A stretch of 64,000 bases of DNA from Eucommia ulmoides (lineage: Eukaryota > Streptophyta > Magnoliopsida > Garryales > Eucommiaceae). This document shows, one piece after another, positions 43,797 to 62,658 of this stretch; position 1 is the first letter of the stretch; the number at the start of each line of letters is the position of its first letter. The notes under the pieces were generated by a model. It ran no database searches. It was not told where the DNA came from and saw only the letters and a list, made by a program, of their open reading frames with translations. A program made the translations under genes and the position numbers. The stretch lies in the NCBI GenBank assembly GCA_016647705.1, contig CM028335.1, forward strand, positions 23,228,905 through 23,292,904, given 5' to 3'.

Positions 43797-45804
43797 ATGG
43801 AGGCCCAAACGTTTTCTTCTCTCTTTTACGCCGTCGTTCTCATTTCCGGCGCCATAACTTCTCTCTCCTCCGCCTCTACGGCCGTCTCTGCTCCACCTCC
43901 AGACCCTCTGGAGCCAGCTACTGCAGCTCCGTCACCGTGGACTTCCCCATCGCCACCATCTCCACCAGCAAAACCTCCCTGTCAGGCAGCGGCGCCATCT
44001 CCGTTTTCGGTACGACGGCGATCTCGCGGCATCAAAGGTGGGTATTGGCCTTCGTCGCTTGCCCAAACGGTGCCGCCGTCTTCTATTCCGACTTCGTATT
44101 TCACCCACGTTTTCTACGCCTTTGTTCAACCCGATCCGACTAGCTACCAGCTATCCATAACACGACCCGACGAGCAATGGATGCCGAATTTCACGGCCAC
44201 ACTCCACGCCGCGGATCCTCCGGCCAGGGCCTTCCTCTCCATCGGAGGCGGCGGCTCCAACTCCGAAACTTTCTCAAACATGGTCAGCAACCGAGACAAC
44301 CGCGCCGCCTTCATTAATTCCGCCGTCGTCGCCGCCCGGAACTACGGATTCGACGGTCTAGACCTCGACTGGGAATTCCCCAACAGCCCGCAAGACATGA
44401 TAAACCTTGCGACACTCTTCTCTGAGTGGCGCACCGCCATCAATTCCGAATCCATCGCCTCCGGCGAACCCCGAATCCTCCTCTCCGCCGCCGTCTATTT
44501 CGCCTCGAGTTTTTTCTTGTCGGGGCTTCCCCGGCACTACAGCAGCGAATCGATCAGAAAACACGTCGACTTCGTGAGTCCGATGTGCTTCGACTATCAC
44601 GGCGCGTGGGACACCTCCGTCACCGGAGAGCACGCTCTCCTCTTCGACAAGTCGAGCAATATCAGCACAAGCTACGGAATCTCAACGTGGAAAGGGAGCG
44701 GCATGCCGGGGAAGAAGCTGGTTATGGGAATGCCGGAGTACGGAAGGACGTGGAAACTGAAGGATCCGAATATCAACGGCATAGGAGCTCCGGCTGTCGC
44801 GACTGGACCGGGAACCGAAGGGGTGATGGCGTATACGGACATAGTGGATTTTAATTGGGGTAGAACTGCGACTGTGGTGTACAGTAGTGAAACGGTGTCT
44901 ACCTTTTCGTATTCGGGTACGGATTGGATCGGGTATGATGACCCGATATCGATCCGAAACAAGGTTATTTATGCGAAGGCTCAGGGACTTGGCGGGTATT
45001 TCTTTTGGGCAATTGGAAACGACAGGAATTGGACCCTGGCCAGGACAGGTATGCATCCCTTTTTTTTATTTTTATTGTTTTCAATTTTTAAAAGCATAAC
45101 ATTCTGTCCGTACCCCTCTATTTTTTAAAATAAATGGAGAAATATATTGTCACAATAAATTCTTTTAAAATAAATAAAGAAATATATTCTCACAATAAAT
45201 TCTAATTATGAACTCAACTACCTTGTTATGAATATACAACCATATGAGTGATTTACCCAAGAGATGTTAATTCAATTGGTAAAAAGAGGTACATTTTTCC
45301 TTATCAACTAGAGTTCAACTCTTTTTAGAGATTACTTCAAAAATTAAATCTTGAATGGACCAGACCGATACAGGTAAATGTAACCTTAAGATTATCTGGA
45401 GAAATGATTAATCGAGTTACGTGTAAGTTGACTCGAACACACCTACTGTATAATCTAAAAAAATGATGAGTTATTTTTAAAAGGTATATGGCTTTTAAGT
45501 TAATATTTTTGTTTGTAGTTTTTTATTTGCTATTTATGTTTTTAATATTTGGATACATATATATGTGTGTGTTTATTTCTAAACTTCCAAGATAATTTTT
45601 TGGGCATACTTTAATTTATTTTTTAAAAAAAAAATAAAAAATGCAAAACATGACAAAAATTTATTATTAGTTATCGTATTATGTCTTGTTATATGATAGC
45701 TTCGACTAAAAAAAAAATGCAAAACATGACAAAAATTTATTATTAGTAATCTTATTATGTCTTGTTATATGACAGCTTCGATGGCATGGGACGGCAAGAA
45801 GTGA
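43797..45804 (+). CDS. GH18 class V chitinase-like protein (gene A), two exons
   Basis: Secreted GH18 hydrolase-type protein expected to act on chitin or related GlcNAc polymers. Exon 1 is 43797-45048 and exon 2 is 45776-45804, joined in phase 1 over a GT-AG intron of 727 bp, giving about 426 residues ending ASMAWDGKK. I prefer the ATG at 43797, since it is followed by a hydrophobic signal peptide (FSSLFYAVVLISGAI); an in-frame ATG at 43737 would bury it. Residues about 33-75 are a Pro/Ser-rich spacer not usual in the family. The catalytic domain starts at IKGGYWPS. It has FTHVFYAF, SIGGGG, the intact signature DGLDLDWE (acid/base Glu codon 44373-44375), MCFDYHGAWD, YGRTW and GYFFWAI. Codons are GC3-rich compared with the surroundings. 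Convergent with gene B. The intron contains a duplicated acceptor. Confidence 0.9.
45641..45785 (+). repeat. 76 bp tandem duplication spanning the 3' splice site of gene A
   Basis: Copy 1 (45641-45716) and copy 2 (45717 to about 45785) share ATGCAAAACATGACAAAAAT and the following AT-rich run up to TATATGA(T/C)AGCTTCGA, with only a few differences. Each contains an AG acceptor, at 45698-45699 and 45774-45775, exactly 76 bp apart. Confidence 0.95.
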
Positions 45805-46024: not shown

Positions 46025-46454
46025 AAGAAAAAAAGCAATTGCTTCTATATTAAAATAAAAATATAAAAACAAAATAAATTTATTTTTGTTCTGACATTTT
46101 AAGAATAACATTTGGATGCATATCAAAATAGTTTCTAGATTAAGAACAAAAATATGAGAACAAACACCGCCCAACTTTCCAGCTAAATTAACTGAATCAG
46201 AGGAAGTTCTTCTCTTTCATAATTTTAAATGTTTTTCAAGAAAAAAGGAAAATAATAATCCGAAAAAATTTCTTACAAACATCTATGATCCAAACACTAG
46301 AAAAAGAACATTCTTTTTTGTTTTCTTCTGCATGTATTATCGGTTTCATGCATGGGAACCATAACCGACGTGCAGCTGACTTCCTAAGTACGTACCCACG
46401 CCTTGGAAGCTGCAAAGAATAGCGAGAGGATAGATTAGGAAAATGATACATTTA
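45805..46454. other. Gene A downstream region
   Basis: AT-rich 3' flank with a (TA)n tract at about 45996-46020. No gene seen. Confidence 0.5.
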
Positions 46455-47305
46455 GAGCATCTACAATAAGTATTGTTATAAGATATGTCAAAAAATTTAG
46501 TCATATTTTTTAATTAAAATTAAACTCCAACAAATGTATTATTTAGTGCACCAAAATGGCATACTCCTCTCGTCTAAGTCATATTTACCACACTTACAAG
46601 CCTAATAAAAAAATTAGAGAGAAGACTGTTGGAAGTAGTTGTTGCTCCAACCGTCATCAAACTAAAAATAAAACACAAATTAAAAAAAAATAAAAAATTG
46701 TTCATTTTATTTTATTTGGATTGAATTTGTTTGTTACTTGTGTTTTATTTGTGTTAATTATAATTTATTAATTGAGTTAAGTTGCAATTTAATTTGAGTT
46801 AATTTAAATTCTAATTCACCTGATTTATTTAGTTTAATTTGATACATGTGGATTTAGATCTAGTCATTAATTTGATACATGCAGATGCAGATACATAATA
46901 TTAGTTCAAATTCAAATTTAAAAAAATAATTTCACATTAAAATTTTTAAAATTTAAAAAATAAATAAATTGGAATTTAGCAGTTACTTAAAAGATTTATT
47001 CAATTTCATTTTTATTTTTAATTTTAATTTTAATACAAAATAATTTTAAAAAATAGCACATTATTTTTAGTAAAATTTTTTTAGAGGTCCCAAAATTTCA
47101 AAAATCACTTTCTAGGTCCCATCTCAAATATAAAAAAATTATTATTACAGGACACCCATAAAGTGGTGTTTTTATAGGATGGAACTTTTGGAGGAATTTC
47201 CCTTATTTTTATTACAACTGTTGAAGTGCTCATTTTAGATTACATGTGCCATATCTCACAAATAACACACTAAATTTGACACATATATTGGAGATATTCT
47301 TATAT
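46455..47305. mobile_element. Possible MITE between the two GH18 genes
   Basis: The left edge (GAGCATCTACAATAAG followed by ATATGTCAAAAAATTTAG) and the right edge (AATTTGACACATATATTGGA followed by GATATTC) are approximate inverted complements, as in short non-autonomous DNA transposons that begin GAGCATCTCCAA. TSDs not resolved. Confidence 0.35.
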
Positions 47306-47614
47306 TATCTTATTTTTGTGTATAATAAAATTTGCGTTGATTTTAAAAATAAAACTAAATATTTTTTTTTTTTTGTGCAATAGAACCTGAATACCTCATT
47401 GTTTAGTGTCCTCCATACAAATCCCAGAGCAGTAATGGAACATGCATGCCCGTGAATGGAGTATATATATGACGGTTAAAATAATTAAGTTGATTCTTCT
47501 ATTGTTAAGCAATAAATTTAATTTTAACTTTTAAACTAAAAGGGCTAACGTTGACTCCATAAATGCATGAAAAATAATTAAATAAATAATTAAAAAAAAA
47601 AAAAAAGTCATTAC

Positions 47615-49573
47615 CGGCTCTTGAGATCTGCCAGCGATAATCTCCATTGACCGCCCAAAAGAAATACCCGCGGAGCCCAAGCCCCTGAGCGTACGCTACC
47701 TTCGCCGCCGTCGATCTCTCGTCATCGTACCCAATCCACGTCATCCCCGCCACCGAATACACCGACACTGTCTGCTCGTCGTAAACCACCGTCGCGTTGT
47801 TCTTCGCGTTAAATTCCTGCAACTCCGCGTACCTCAAAACCCCCTGGTCGCCGGGGCCGAGCCCGACTGCCGGCGCTCCGATGCCGGAAGACATTCGATC
47901 CCTGAGCGTCCAAGTCTTCCCGTAGAGCGGCAATCCCATGACCAGCTTGTTCCGAGGGGCGCCGGCATTGATCCATGATGTCAGGCCATAGCTAGTGCTG
48001 ATGTTGGTATTCGGGTCGTAGAGGGCGGCGTGGGCCCCGGTAATGTTGGGCTCCCACGATCCGTGGTAGTCGTAGTTCATGACGTTGATGAGGTCCAGGG
48101 TTCGGCCCATCAAAGCCGCCGGGAAAGCACGGTAGACGTTGGCGAGGAAGAAGTCGGAGGCGAAGTAGACGGCGGCGGTGAGTAAGAGAGGAGGCCTGTC
48201 GTGGCAAGAATTTCATGATTAGGAGCCTGACTTTTTCCCGGATAATGTTATAAACACCCTCTAGAAACTTCAACAATTGCATGATAGCCCCTCAAATTTA
48301 TATTTATAAATGATAAATACCACATAAGACTCCTTATTTTCAACCAAATATTCTCAATTGAAATCCCAAAGGTAACCTCATGCTATGGAAGAAGAAATAC
48401 TTAATCTTGAAATTAGTATAATCCATTCAAGATTTTTCGTACTTTATATCATACTATTATTTTAGTTTTTAAAATTAATTTTACCCCCAAAATTAATTTT
48501 TAATGCTCAAATTTTGTTATTAAAAGTCAAAAACAAAATAATTTTTGATGAATCTCGAGAAAAGAAAGAAAAAAAAATAATAGTCAAACACCAATTCCAC
48601 ACCACAGAATGGAGGAATGGAGTAAGAACATTAGAAGGTAATTTTTGTAGGGTGATTTTAGACTTCTTTCAACCTCAAAAAATAGTTCATGAGTGGGGTT
48701 TTCCTAACACTTATAACTTAACCATTGACTTTTTCTGCATTGAATGTGGGATAAATCTAACAATCTCTCCTCACACATCGGGCCTTTGGTAAGTAAATCC
48801 TTAACCAATTTCTCCTTCTATGATTATTGGATCAGAGTTATTGTAATATGAACTTTGATACTAATAGATGGTGGTTTTGGATCTCTCTAAATAATAAAAA
48901 CTATCTCATGAGGTAAGATTTTTCTTTACCATTTATAATCTGACTACTAACCCCTTCCACATCTAGGATAAATCTAACACTTTTTGTAACACTTTTTGTC
49001 GTCTGAAAAATAAAATTGGGTGTTGGTCAAGTTTTAAAAAGTGAAGGGGGTTAAACGAAACCTGCGTGTGGCCCTGGCCTCCTTTTGAACTTCGGCTCTC
49101 CATTCACGCAGCAAAATTCCAAAATCTTCCATCTCTTTCGGATCTTTCGGCGATTCCCAATCCAAATCCACCCCGTGAAACCCGTATTTCCTCGCCGCTC
49201 CGATGCTTGACAGGATAAACCTCTTCCGGGACTCCGATTCGGATGCCATCTGTGCGAAAATCGCCGGATCTTCGCCGGCGCCTCCGACAGAAAAGAGCGT
49301 TTTGACCGGTGGATTCTTGGAGCGGAGGGTGGAGGTGAAATTCCGAAGTGATTGGGCGGTGGAAGCGGAGACGTCGAATTCGAAGGTGGTGGTATTGGGG
49401 TTGAGGAATGCGTAGTAGATGTGAGTGAAGAGGTCGGTCCGGATCGCCGATGGTGGCAAATGGGATTCGGACCATGACGGCCAGTAAGTGCCTTTGATTG
49501 GTTGGGAGGCCATGGCGGAGGAAATGGAAAGGATGAGGAAGAGAGAGGAGAGAGAAATTCTTAGAATTGCCAT
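47615..49573 (-). CDS. GH18 class V chitinase-like protein (gene B), last exon uncertain
   Basis: Minus strand. Exon 1 is 49573-49062 and exon 2 is 48195-47615, joined in phase 2 over an 866 bp GT-AG intron. This gives 364 codons plus one base before a donor (GTAATG) at 47614. Residues 1-22 are a signal peptide ending SSAMA. Then come IKGTYWPS, FTHIYYAF, SVGGAG, the signature as HGVDLDWE (residues 133-140, catalytic Glu140 kept, first Asp changed to His), MNYDYHGSWE, YGKTW, WIGYDDE and GYFFWAV. The phase-1 donor falls at the same place as in gene A, but an intact terminal micro-exon was not found. A probable relic lies near 47400-47436 without a clean acceptor. Gene B is likely secreted. Its catalytic competence and 3' end are uncertain, so it may be a recent pseudogene. 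Confidence 0.8.
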
Positions 49574-58424: not shown

Positions 58425-61400
58425 CTCACGATTGGGTTGCCCATTTTGAGTTTGTGTTGGAGAAACACAAATTGATTTGTCGCAAGAGCTTTGGTTAGAA
58501 TATCAGCAATTTGGTCATGAGAAGTAACATAATCAACTCGAATTTCACCATTAAGAACCTTTTCCCTAATAAAATGATAATCCACTTCAATATGTTTTGT
58601 GCGAGCATGAAAAACTGGATTATATGCTAGAGACAAAGCTGACTGACTATCATACCATAGCATAAGAGTAGAATTGACCTAAATTGTAAGATCCTTAAGT
58701 AGAAAAGAGACCTAAGTTAATTCAGAAGCTGTTTGTGCCATAGTTCTATATTCTGCTTCAGTAGAGGATCTGGAAATAGTTGGTTATTTCTTTGAAGACC
58801 AGGAGATAAGATTAGAGCCCAAAAAGACACAATATCCCCCTATAGATCTTCTATCAATTGGACAACCAGCCCAATTAGAGTATGAATATGCATTCAGTTT
58901 AAAAGAACTAGAAGTAAACTAAAGACCATAAGTTGTAGTGCCTTTAAGATACCTAAGTATCCTTTTTACAGCTGAAAAATCCTTATTGCTTGGATTATGC
59001 ATGTGTTGACAAACACTGTTGACAACATATGTAATGTTTGGTCTTGTGTAGGTTAAGTACTGTAATGCCCCAACAATACTCCGAAAATGGGTTAGATCTT
59101 CATAGGGGTGTTCATCAAATGCTGTTGGAGTAGTGTATTTTATATAAGTGGGAGTAGGAGCTGGTTTGCAGCTTGTCATGCCAGCTCTGTGAATAACATC
59201 TGTGCAATATTTCCTTTGATGTAAAAGAAGACCAGTGTTATTGTACTCAACCTCCAGGCCTGGGAAATAGGAAAGTTTACCTAGATCCTTCATAGCAAAC
59301 ATTGTACTCATGTCTTTGATAAGATGAGAAATCTGATTTGAGTTACTGTTTGTAATGAGAATATCATCAACATAAACAAGTAGGAAGATCACACCTTAAC
59401 CAAGATTTTGGATGAATAGAGAAGTATCGGTCTTGCTAGCTTGAAACTCCTTCAAAGTTAGGTAGGATGAAAGCATGGAGAACCAGTTTCTAGGGGCCTG
59501 TTTAAGTCCATAAAGAGACTTGTTTAACTTACAAATATAAGTGGGAAAATCAGGATGAACAAAGCCTTGGGGTTGAGTCATATAGACTTATTCTTCTAGA
59601 ATTCGATGTAGAAAGGCATTGGACACATCCAGTTGTTTGATATCCCATTGTTGGTGAAATGCTAATGAAAGGAGAACTTTAATTGTAGGATGCTTAGCTA
59701 CAGGACTAAAAGTTTCAGAATAGTCAATACCAAATTGTTGATGGTATCCTTTAGCTACTAATCGAGCTTTGTATCTAGCTATAGTTCCATCTGAAGCCCT
59801 TTTGATTTGGATCACCCATTTACACCCTATAGGTTGTCTATCTTGAGGGAGATGAACTATGGTCCAAGTTCTTTGTTTGAGCAAAACATTGTTCATTGCA
59901 TCAACCCGCTGTGGACATTGAGCAGCCTCAGCATAGTTAGTTGGTTCATTTTCAACATAAGAAGGTGTCAAATTAGCATACTTGGGATTAGGCTTGTATA
60001 CTCCCAGTTTGGACCTGGTAATGATTAGATGAATTGGTGATATGAGGTTTAGTAAAGATGAGAGAGTGTGAAATAATTGATGTGAAGAAGTTAATTGTGT
60101 GAATGAGACATTCTGTGAGGTTGTTGTAATAGAATCTATTTGAGTTGAGGATAGTGGGGAAGATGATATCTCTCAGGTGTTTGATGAAGAAAGAAAGTGA
60201 ATAGGGGTGATGAAGTTAGGTTGAAAAGAGGAGTGAGACAGTAGTGTGGATAAGAACATAGAATCAACAGATTGAATGGAGAATTCTTGGGCTTGAGGTT
60301 TAGGTTGCTGGAGAGGAAATACATGTTCATAGAACTTAACATGTCTTGAAACATAGACTTTTTGAGTTTTGACATCCAAACATTTGTATCCTTTAGTGGT
60401 TGAGCAGTAACCAAGAAAGATACACTCAGTGGATCTTGGTTGGAGTTTATGATGCTGGTATAGTCTTAACCAAGGAAAACACAGTGATCCAAAGACTTTA
60501 AGATGATTATATGAGAGAGTAAATTTGTAGAGACACTAATAAGGAGACTAAAACTGAAGAATTGGTTTGGGAAGCCTATTAATTAGATAATTTGCAGTAG
60601 ACACAACATCTAACCAATAAGAAGAGGTAAGATTAGCTTGTTGTAACAATGCTATTGTTGTTTCAACAAGATGTCTATGTTTTCTTTCAACCAAACCATT
60701 CTTTTCAGGTGTATGAGGACAATATTTTTGATGCTCAGTGCCTTGAGATTAAAGATAGGCTGCAAATTCAAGGATTAGGTATTCTCCTCCATTATCAGTT
60801 CTAAACTTCTGAACCTCGGTTTTAAAATGTGTTTTGATCATGGTGGTAAAATGAACATAGGATTTGTAGACTTTAGACTTATGTTTAAGAGGATACAACC
60901 ATGAAAATCTTGAGAAATTATCAATTAACACAATATAGTATCTAAAACCTTTAAATGATGGAATTGGGGAAGGACCCCATACATATGAATACACAAGTTC
61001 AAACTCATGATCTGTTTTAGACATTGAAACTGGAAAAAGAAGTTTGTGGCTCTTGGCTGTTGCACAAGGCACATATACACAATCTTTTGAAATAACTAGA
61101 ATCTGGAGAGATTTTGCTAAGTTGTTGCAGACTTCAACAGAGGGATGTCCTAGTCTTAGATGCCACAGTGGTGGATGAGGTTCTTTGAACACCACAGCAG
61201 TTGTACCAACTTTATTGGAGTGAAATGGTTTGGTTGATTACAGTAGATAAAGACCATACCTAGAGCGGCCCTGAAATAGAAGCATCTTGGTTGAATTGTT
61301 CAAAATTTGAAATCCCTTGGAATGAATCATAATTGAACAATCATTATCAGTTGTGAATTTATGAACTAACATTAGATTAGATGCAATTGATGGAACATGA

Positions 61401-62658
61401 AGAATGTGACTGAGAAGAAAATCATGTTTAGAGGTATGAAGCTTACCAGATCTATAGTTTTGTATAGATAAACCTTTTCCATTTCCAACATGAATTTGAT
61501 CTGATCCTTGATATGGTTGAGCCAGCTGCAAATTTTCTAATTCATTGGTAATATGGTTATTTGCTCCTGAGTCAAGTAGCCATTCTTCTGGATAATTCAC
61601 TGTACTGGTATGTTCAACTGTGGCTGTATTGTTTGCTTGGGGCTGTGACATTGTGTTTTGTTGAGATTTAGTGTTTTGGTAACTATGATCATGTCTGTAC
61701 CAGTAGTCTAAGGTACTGTGATTGGGTTTACCACAAATTTGGCATATCAGTCTTGCAGAATTTTGAGTCAAATTGTGATTATATCCTCCTCTATTACTTC
61801 TTCCTCCTCTACCCCTATTATTGTAAAATTTTCCTCTTCCTCTTTGATTTTCAGTTCTTCCTCTATTATGCTGCTGATAAGATTGAAAGGCTGTGAACTG
61901 TTCCTCAGCAAAATTTGCAGTTACAGATGGTTGAACATGATCTTTTTTATCTAGCAGTCTTGAGTTAACTTTCTCAATAGAGAGAGATTTCTTTTTAGAT
62001 CTAATGTATGTTTTAATAGAGTTATATTCCTTAGGCAGTCATTTAAGAGTGTAATACACTAGGTCTAAATCATCAAGGGCAGTGGGTTTGACTGACTGAA
62101 TGCTCTCTACAATGTTCTTTAACTCAGTAATGTATTCAAGCGTAGTTGAGGTACCTTTAGTTAATGTTTGAAGTTTGTGAGTGAGCTGATGCACATGAGA
62201 CATGGAAACTGGATTAAATATTTTCTCTAGAATTTGCAGAACATCCATAGTGTGAGGTAATCTTCTGACCAGTGGAAGCACCGCTCCTGCGATGGTACTC
62301 ATAATGTAGGTTCGTAGATGCTTATCCACTAGGATCCATTTGGCATACTCTGGATTAGCCACTGTCAAACCTTCAACGTTTTTCACTTCTGATTCTGGGA
62401 AGGGTTGTTTACCAATAGCTAACTCAAGAGGATTATTGGTGTCAAGTGCATTCATCACTTGTGACTCCTACATAATGTCATTTGTAGCATCTAATATGAC
62501 ATTGATTAGAGAACTGAGATTTGAGGCCAGAAAACTACATTTTGGTGGTATGTTTGCCATGGCTGATTTTCTGTGTATTAGTGCTGAATTTTGTGGATTA
62601 TTGAACAGGTTGTAGCAGTGAAATAAATCATGCATCAAAGCTCAATGAAGAGTCAAGA

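Follow-up and report, generated by a model that had tools for sequence, protein, structure and literature searches.

Duplicated and tandem acceptors in plants

A tandem duplication across an intron/exon boundary has been described in the potato RdRp gene PGSC0003DMG402000361 (PMC4974935). The duplicated segment in that gene, like that in the gene described here (gene A), consists of an intron's 3' end, with a putative branch site, a pyrimidine tract, and CAG, together with some exon sequence. The two copies differ at 10 sites in potato RdRp and at 4 in gene A, and each gene carries a further intronic tandem duplication (83 bp in the first intron of potato RdRp, and 40 bp in the same intron as the duplicated acceptor of gene A). 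According to PMC4974935, a GTAAG donor was recruited in potato and a new intron was formed, as confirmed by 106 RNA-seq reads. In contrast, the exon piece retained in gene A, CTTCGACT, contains neither a GT nor a GC donor, and gene A gained a putative alternative acceptor only. Since this piece lacks GT and GC, no new intron is expected, and we rejected intron gain as in potato RdRp. With the GC at 45719 or the GT at 45746, both downstream of the retained piece, an intron reaching to the distal AG would measure 57 or 30 nt, respectively, which is below plant minima.

The NAGNAG acceptors of Arabidopsis (PMC2375911) resemble gene A in that two in-phase AGs lie near one exon, with TAG upstream and CAG downstream. 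However, the sites in gene A are 76 nt apart, derive from the duplication of a segment, and each have their own upstream module. The alternative reading of gene A also carries its own stop. The duplicated acceptor in gene A is another instance of an already known class of mutation. Among the literature matches listed (title and start of abstract), none described gene A or a class V chitinase gene whose acceptor is duplicated.

A class V chitinase gene with a duplicated intron end

The window analyzed is a 64-kb stretch of a 43.8-Mb contig, in a genome of 947 Mb in 391 contigs; the closest GH18 proteins and the structure of the genes point to a plant. Gene A and a convergent paralog, gene B, are located in it as follows.

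43797-45048, plus strand: exon 1 of gene A (Pfam PF00704, E 3.1e-69), encoding DGLDLDWE
45049-45775, plus strand: last intron of gene A with the distal acceptor, 727 bp (GTATGC...TGACAG, from the sequence)
46384-49573, minus strand: gene B, convergent GH18 paralog (predicted exons 49573-49062, 48195-47615, and 46409-46384)

The PF00704 catalytic domain of gene A scored 234.5 bits against a Pfam cut-off of 29.6. Its translation contains DGLDLDWE, a match to DxDxE, the active-site motif of plant class V (GH18) chitinases. The closest solved chains were 3alf/3alg ('Chitinase, class V'), followed by 4mnj and its kin ('Chitinase A') and 3aqu ('At4g19810'). Judged by its sequence, gene A is a plant class V (GH18) chitinase, and it is predicted to hydrolyze chitin. 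Exon 1 is open over 417 codons, the donor is the GT at 45049 (the intron opens with GTATGC), and the last intron is identical in position and phase to the introns of two paralogs, gene B and locus L002 (contig C6). We also noted that approximately 50 extra residues, rich in proline, precede the GH18 domain in gene A relative to gene B (window positions 43878-44027). Part of this stretch may be common to L002, whose match begins at residue 58.

The end of the last intron is duplicated in tandem. Both copies were delimited by repeat searches and a base-by-base comparison.

45632-45707, plus strand: upstream copy of the 76-bp unit, with the proximal acceptor TAG ending at 45699
45708-45783, plus strand: downstream copy of the 76-bp unit, with the distal acceptor CAG ending at 45775

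Tandem Repeats Finder (TRF) reported an array at 45632-45781 (period 76, 2.0 copies, 94% matches, score 272), and a repeat search found 2 copies of 74 nt at a spacing of 76 that were 95% identical. When the copies were compared base by base, 70 of the 74 aligned bases were identical and 4 differed; the final 2 bases of the 76-nt period also differ, which brings the differences to 6 in 76. The match of one copy to the other (E 2.8e-29) is far beyond chance. From gene A, the unit takes in the last 68 intron bases and CTTCGA of the last exon, and the sequence at the junction of the copies is CTTCGA-CT-AAAAAAAAAATGC. The original prediction of a repeated 76-bp unit, with an AG and CTTCGA at both sites, was borne out by TRF, the repeat search, and the base-by-base comparison. 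An internal AG (TTATTAG), absent from that prediction, is also doubled by the unit and ends at 45670 and 45746; therefore, the region contains more than two AGs. The divergence of 4 in 74 bases suggests an age of a few million years, a rough figure based on the plant neutral rate. The duplication is probably recent and, as we infer, neutral.

Tandem duplication of short segments is a common background. TRF found several other arrays with periods of 29-186 bp in the window. Our scan (unit 30-200 bp, at least 90% gapless identity, low-complexity sequence removed by a 3-mer entropy threshold) kept only two tandem units in the 64-kb window, the 76-bp unit and, in the same gene A intron, the 40-bp unit listed below.

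45123-45203, plus strand: second tandem duplication in the 727-bp intron, 40 bp x 2, 92% (TRF and scan)

We rejected the spread of the 76-bp unit as a transposable element within the window and loci L001-L008, since these contained no further full copy besides that of gene A (which is itself locus L003). The other matches at E <= 0.01 were 30-37 nt long in the window, several of them inside simple-sequence arrays, and 17-24 nt long in L002 and L007, with short self-matches in L003.

Reading tails and strength of the two acceptors

The AG of the proximal acceptor ends at 45699 (GTTATATGATAG/CTTCGA) and that of the distal acceptor at 45775 (GTTATATGACAG/CTTCGA), which gives two alternative last coding segments.

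45700-45746, plus strand: last coding segment with the proximal acceptor, tail ASTKKKMQNMTKIYY, including the stop (translation)
45776-45804, plus strand: last coding segment with the distal, canonical acceptor, tail ASMAWDGKK, including the stop (translation and family tails)

Splicing to 45700 would produce a protein of 432 aa with the C-terminus ASTKKKMQNMTKIYY and a stop codon ending at 45746, while splicing to 45776 would produce 426 aa with the C-terminus ASMAWDGKK and a stop codon ending at 45804. Translation placed both acceptors in phase with the donor at 45049, as originally predicted, and the predicted coordinates and both tails all proved correct when followed by translation and base by base. 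The description of ASMAWDGKK as family-like also stood, on the evidence of two paralogs and four solved plant proteins. The proposed competition between the acceptors, with two C-termini, holds only as a potential of the sequence.

The acceptor of gene B, TTTGCAG/CTTCCAAGGCGTGG, leads to the tail ASKAWVRT, and that of L002, TTGGCAG/CTTCAAGAGCATGG, to ASRAWGY. Both paralogs have the intron at the same codon as gene A, in phase 1 and ending in CAG/CTTC. This comparison covers gene B and L002, 2 of the 6 paralogs fetched; the C-terminal introns of the more distantly related L001, L004, L005, and L006 were not resolved by simple patterns and lie outside it. The loci come from a search in which 24 GH18 matches were listed and 8 were taken as loci. 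The tails of four distinct solved plant proteins are ASQTW (3alf, which we take to be a tobacco protein), ASRAW (4uri, a chitinase-related agglutinin), ASQAWDA (3aqu), and ASDTWGG (4mnl/4mnj, of which 4mnj is presumably a cycad protein). W422 of gene A corresponds to a W at the same position in 3alf/3alg, 4uri, 3aqu, and 4mnj/4mnl. With its GH18 domain and AS-x-(A/T)-W tail, the distal isoform would resemble 3alf, At4g19810 (3aqu), 4mnj, and 4uri. A tail of this form after the phase-1 intron was found in gene A with the distal acceptor only; the proximal tail has only AS in common with the family and loses the shared Trp. When the proximal tail was used as the query, the best alignment to the chains of these four plant relatives ended at residue 40 or 41 of 53 (TAS or TAST). 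The number of distinct solved chains matched was 42 with either query. With the proximal-tail query, the alignments of 4a5q and 3oa5 (CHI1) ran beyond the junction, as far as residue 47 of 53, but these matches were weak (E ~0.003) and were given no weight. Since the tails of the paralogs and solved proteins fit ASMAWDGKK and not the proximal tail, the distal site is, by this comparison, the ancestral exon's continuation; it is the upstream copy that has come to lie in a new context.

The 4 mismatches over the 74 aligned positions comprise 1 in the A-rich start (45635) and 3 in the final 30 bases of the splice module. At position 45697, the -3 position of the acceptor, the proximal copy has T and the distal copy has C (TAG versus CAG). 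The -3 C is present in both resolved paralogs, gene B and L002, and this was the sole difference that could be polarized. The differences at 45672 and 45676 coincide with GTAAT and CTTAT, branch-point-like motifs that occur in the distal copy only, at distances of 26 and 21 nt, respectively, from where the AG ends. TTTAT, of the YTNAY type and at a distance of 36 nt, is common to both 76-bp copies. Branch-point patterns are weak predictors. All three differences in the splice module look as if they weaken the proximal copy; however, the chance that three of three changes weaken one copy is approximately 1 in 8.

Base composition also differs downstream of the two sites. Over the 29 nt after the acceptor, GC was 0.28 for the proximal site, 0.55 for the distal site, 0.52 for gene B, and 0.45 for L002; over 50 nt, the values were 0.20, 0.50, 0.54, and 0.40, respectively. 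Exon-like GC follows only the distal acceptor of gene A. According to PMC4974935, citing others, introns are richer in A + U than exons, and this contrast is held to aid splicing.

Published Arabidopsis data bear on the choice between such sites. The preference at the acceptor -3 position was reported as C >= T > A > G (PMC2375911). For four TAG,CAG tandem acceptors tabulated in the same paper, the predicted upstream use was 7-25% and 0 of 22 ESTs were upstream; these figures apply to sites 3 nt apart, as against 76 nt in gene A. PMC2375911 also cites U11-35K, in which alternative splicing at a TAGCAG acceptor is functional. The rank of the [N]4AG hexamer explained approximately 66% of acceptor choices within 50 bp of the site (PMC12480690, Table 2), a range shorter than the 76 nt between TGATAG and TGACAG in gene A. 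For the species covered by PMC6581728, the presence of a branch site was reported to have no significant effect on alternative acceptors.

Use of the two acceptors

In our preferred reading, the tandem duplication placed a further intron end, made up of a branch region, a U-rich stretch, and an AG, together with 6 exon bases, directly upstream of the original exon. The original distal CAG would still join exon 1 to the conserved AS-x-(A/T)-W tail, and the upstream copy, now intron-like and ending in the weaker TAG, would most likely be skipped or little used. We consider it probable that gene A carries a recent, neutral 76-bp duplication with the distal site as the main acceptor and the proximal site as a weak decoy. 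Predominant use of the distal acceptor appears likely because of the TAG against the CAG, the branch-like motifs missing from the first copy, the lack of a GC rise, and the loss of Trp. We place it no higher than likely because the agreement of three changes may occur by chance, because of the first-AG preference, and because the evidence is that of the sequence. A minor proximal isoform may be produced.

Spliceosomes often select the first suitable AG, and the duplicated-acceptor experiments of Lang and Spritz in 1983 and of Reed and Maniatis in 1986 reportedly favored the upstream copy. This general first-AG preference is the main argument against distal use; under it, a branch point in the first copy or further upstream would favor the proximal site. 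If the first AG prevailed and the proximal site dominated, gene A would mostly make the altered tail, perhaps as a step towards loss of function. The proximal module does keep TTTAT 36 nt upstream. However, its weaker TAG and branch region, the intron-like composition downstream, an exon 1 open over all its codons, and a domain score well above the Pfam cut-off make this outcome very improbable. Appreciable use of both acceptors, each at 10% or more, would yield two chitinases with different C-termini. The two AGs have nearly identical 68-nt upstream modules and are both in phase, and with the stop of the proximal reading in the last exon, NMD via a downstream junction would not be expected. 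In the species covered by PMC6581728, the two major types of plant splicing include alternative acceptors, whose likelihood grows with junction size. However, according to the same source, it drops with distance from the authentic site, which is 76 nt here. The first copy also appears weaker at three positions, GC does not rise after the proximal site, and the shared Trp is absent from the new tail. We consider such dual use rather unlikely. That the proximal site is used appreciably and conditionally, and provides a defence-type chitinase with a lineage-specific, in-phase alternative C-terminus in a natural duplicated-acceptor experiment, is quite doubtful. An assembly artefact, with the 76-bp unit single in the real genome, is hardly credible: the two copies show 4 mismatches in 74 aligned bases, unlike a simple duplication by an assembler, and the size of the contig is that of an apparent long-read assembly.

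If both acceptors are used, gene A would offer a clean natural test of how the plant spliceosome chooses between near-identical 3' modules 76 nt apart. If they are not both used, gene A would be a plant gene that tolerates a duplicated acceptor with a weaker upstream copy.

The predicted product of gene B, whose last-exon acceptor reads TTTGCAG/CTTCC, is open and 372 aa long. An extra GT-AG intron of 866 bp (49061-48196) interrupts the catalytic domain of gene B, at a place where the matches of gene A and L002 are unbroken. GH18 matches were found at six places on C11, the contig of the window, between 23.27 and 24.65 Mb (gene A, gene B, L001, L004, L005, and L006); these six places within 1.4 Mb are a local chitinase-like cluster. 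At 58919-62458 on the minus strand of the window, open reading frames resemble pieces of a Ty1-copia-type retrotransposon, as judged by eye.
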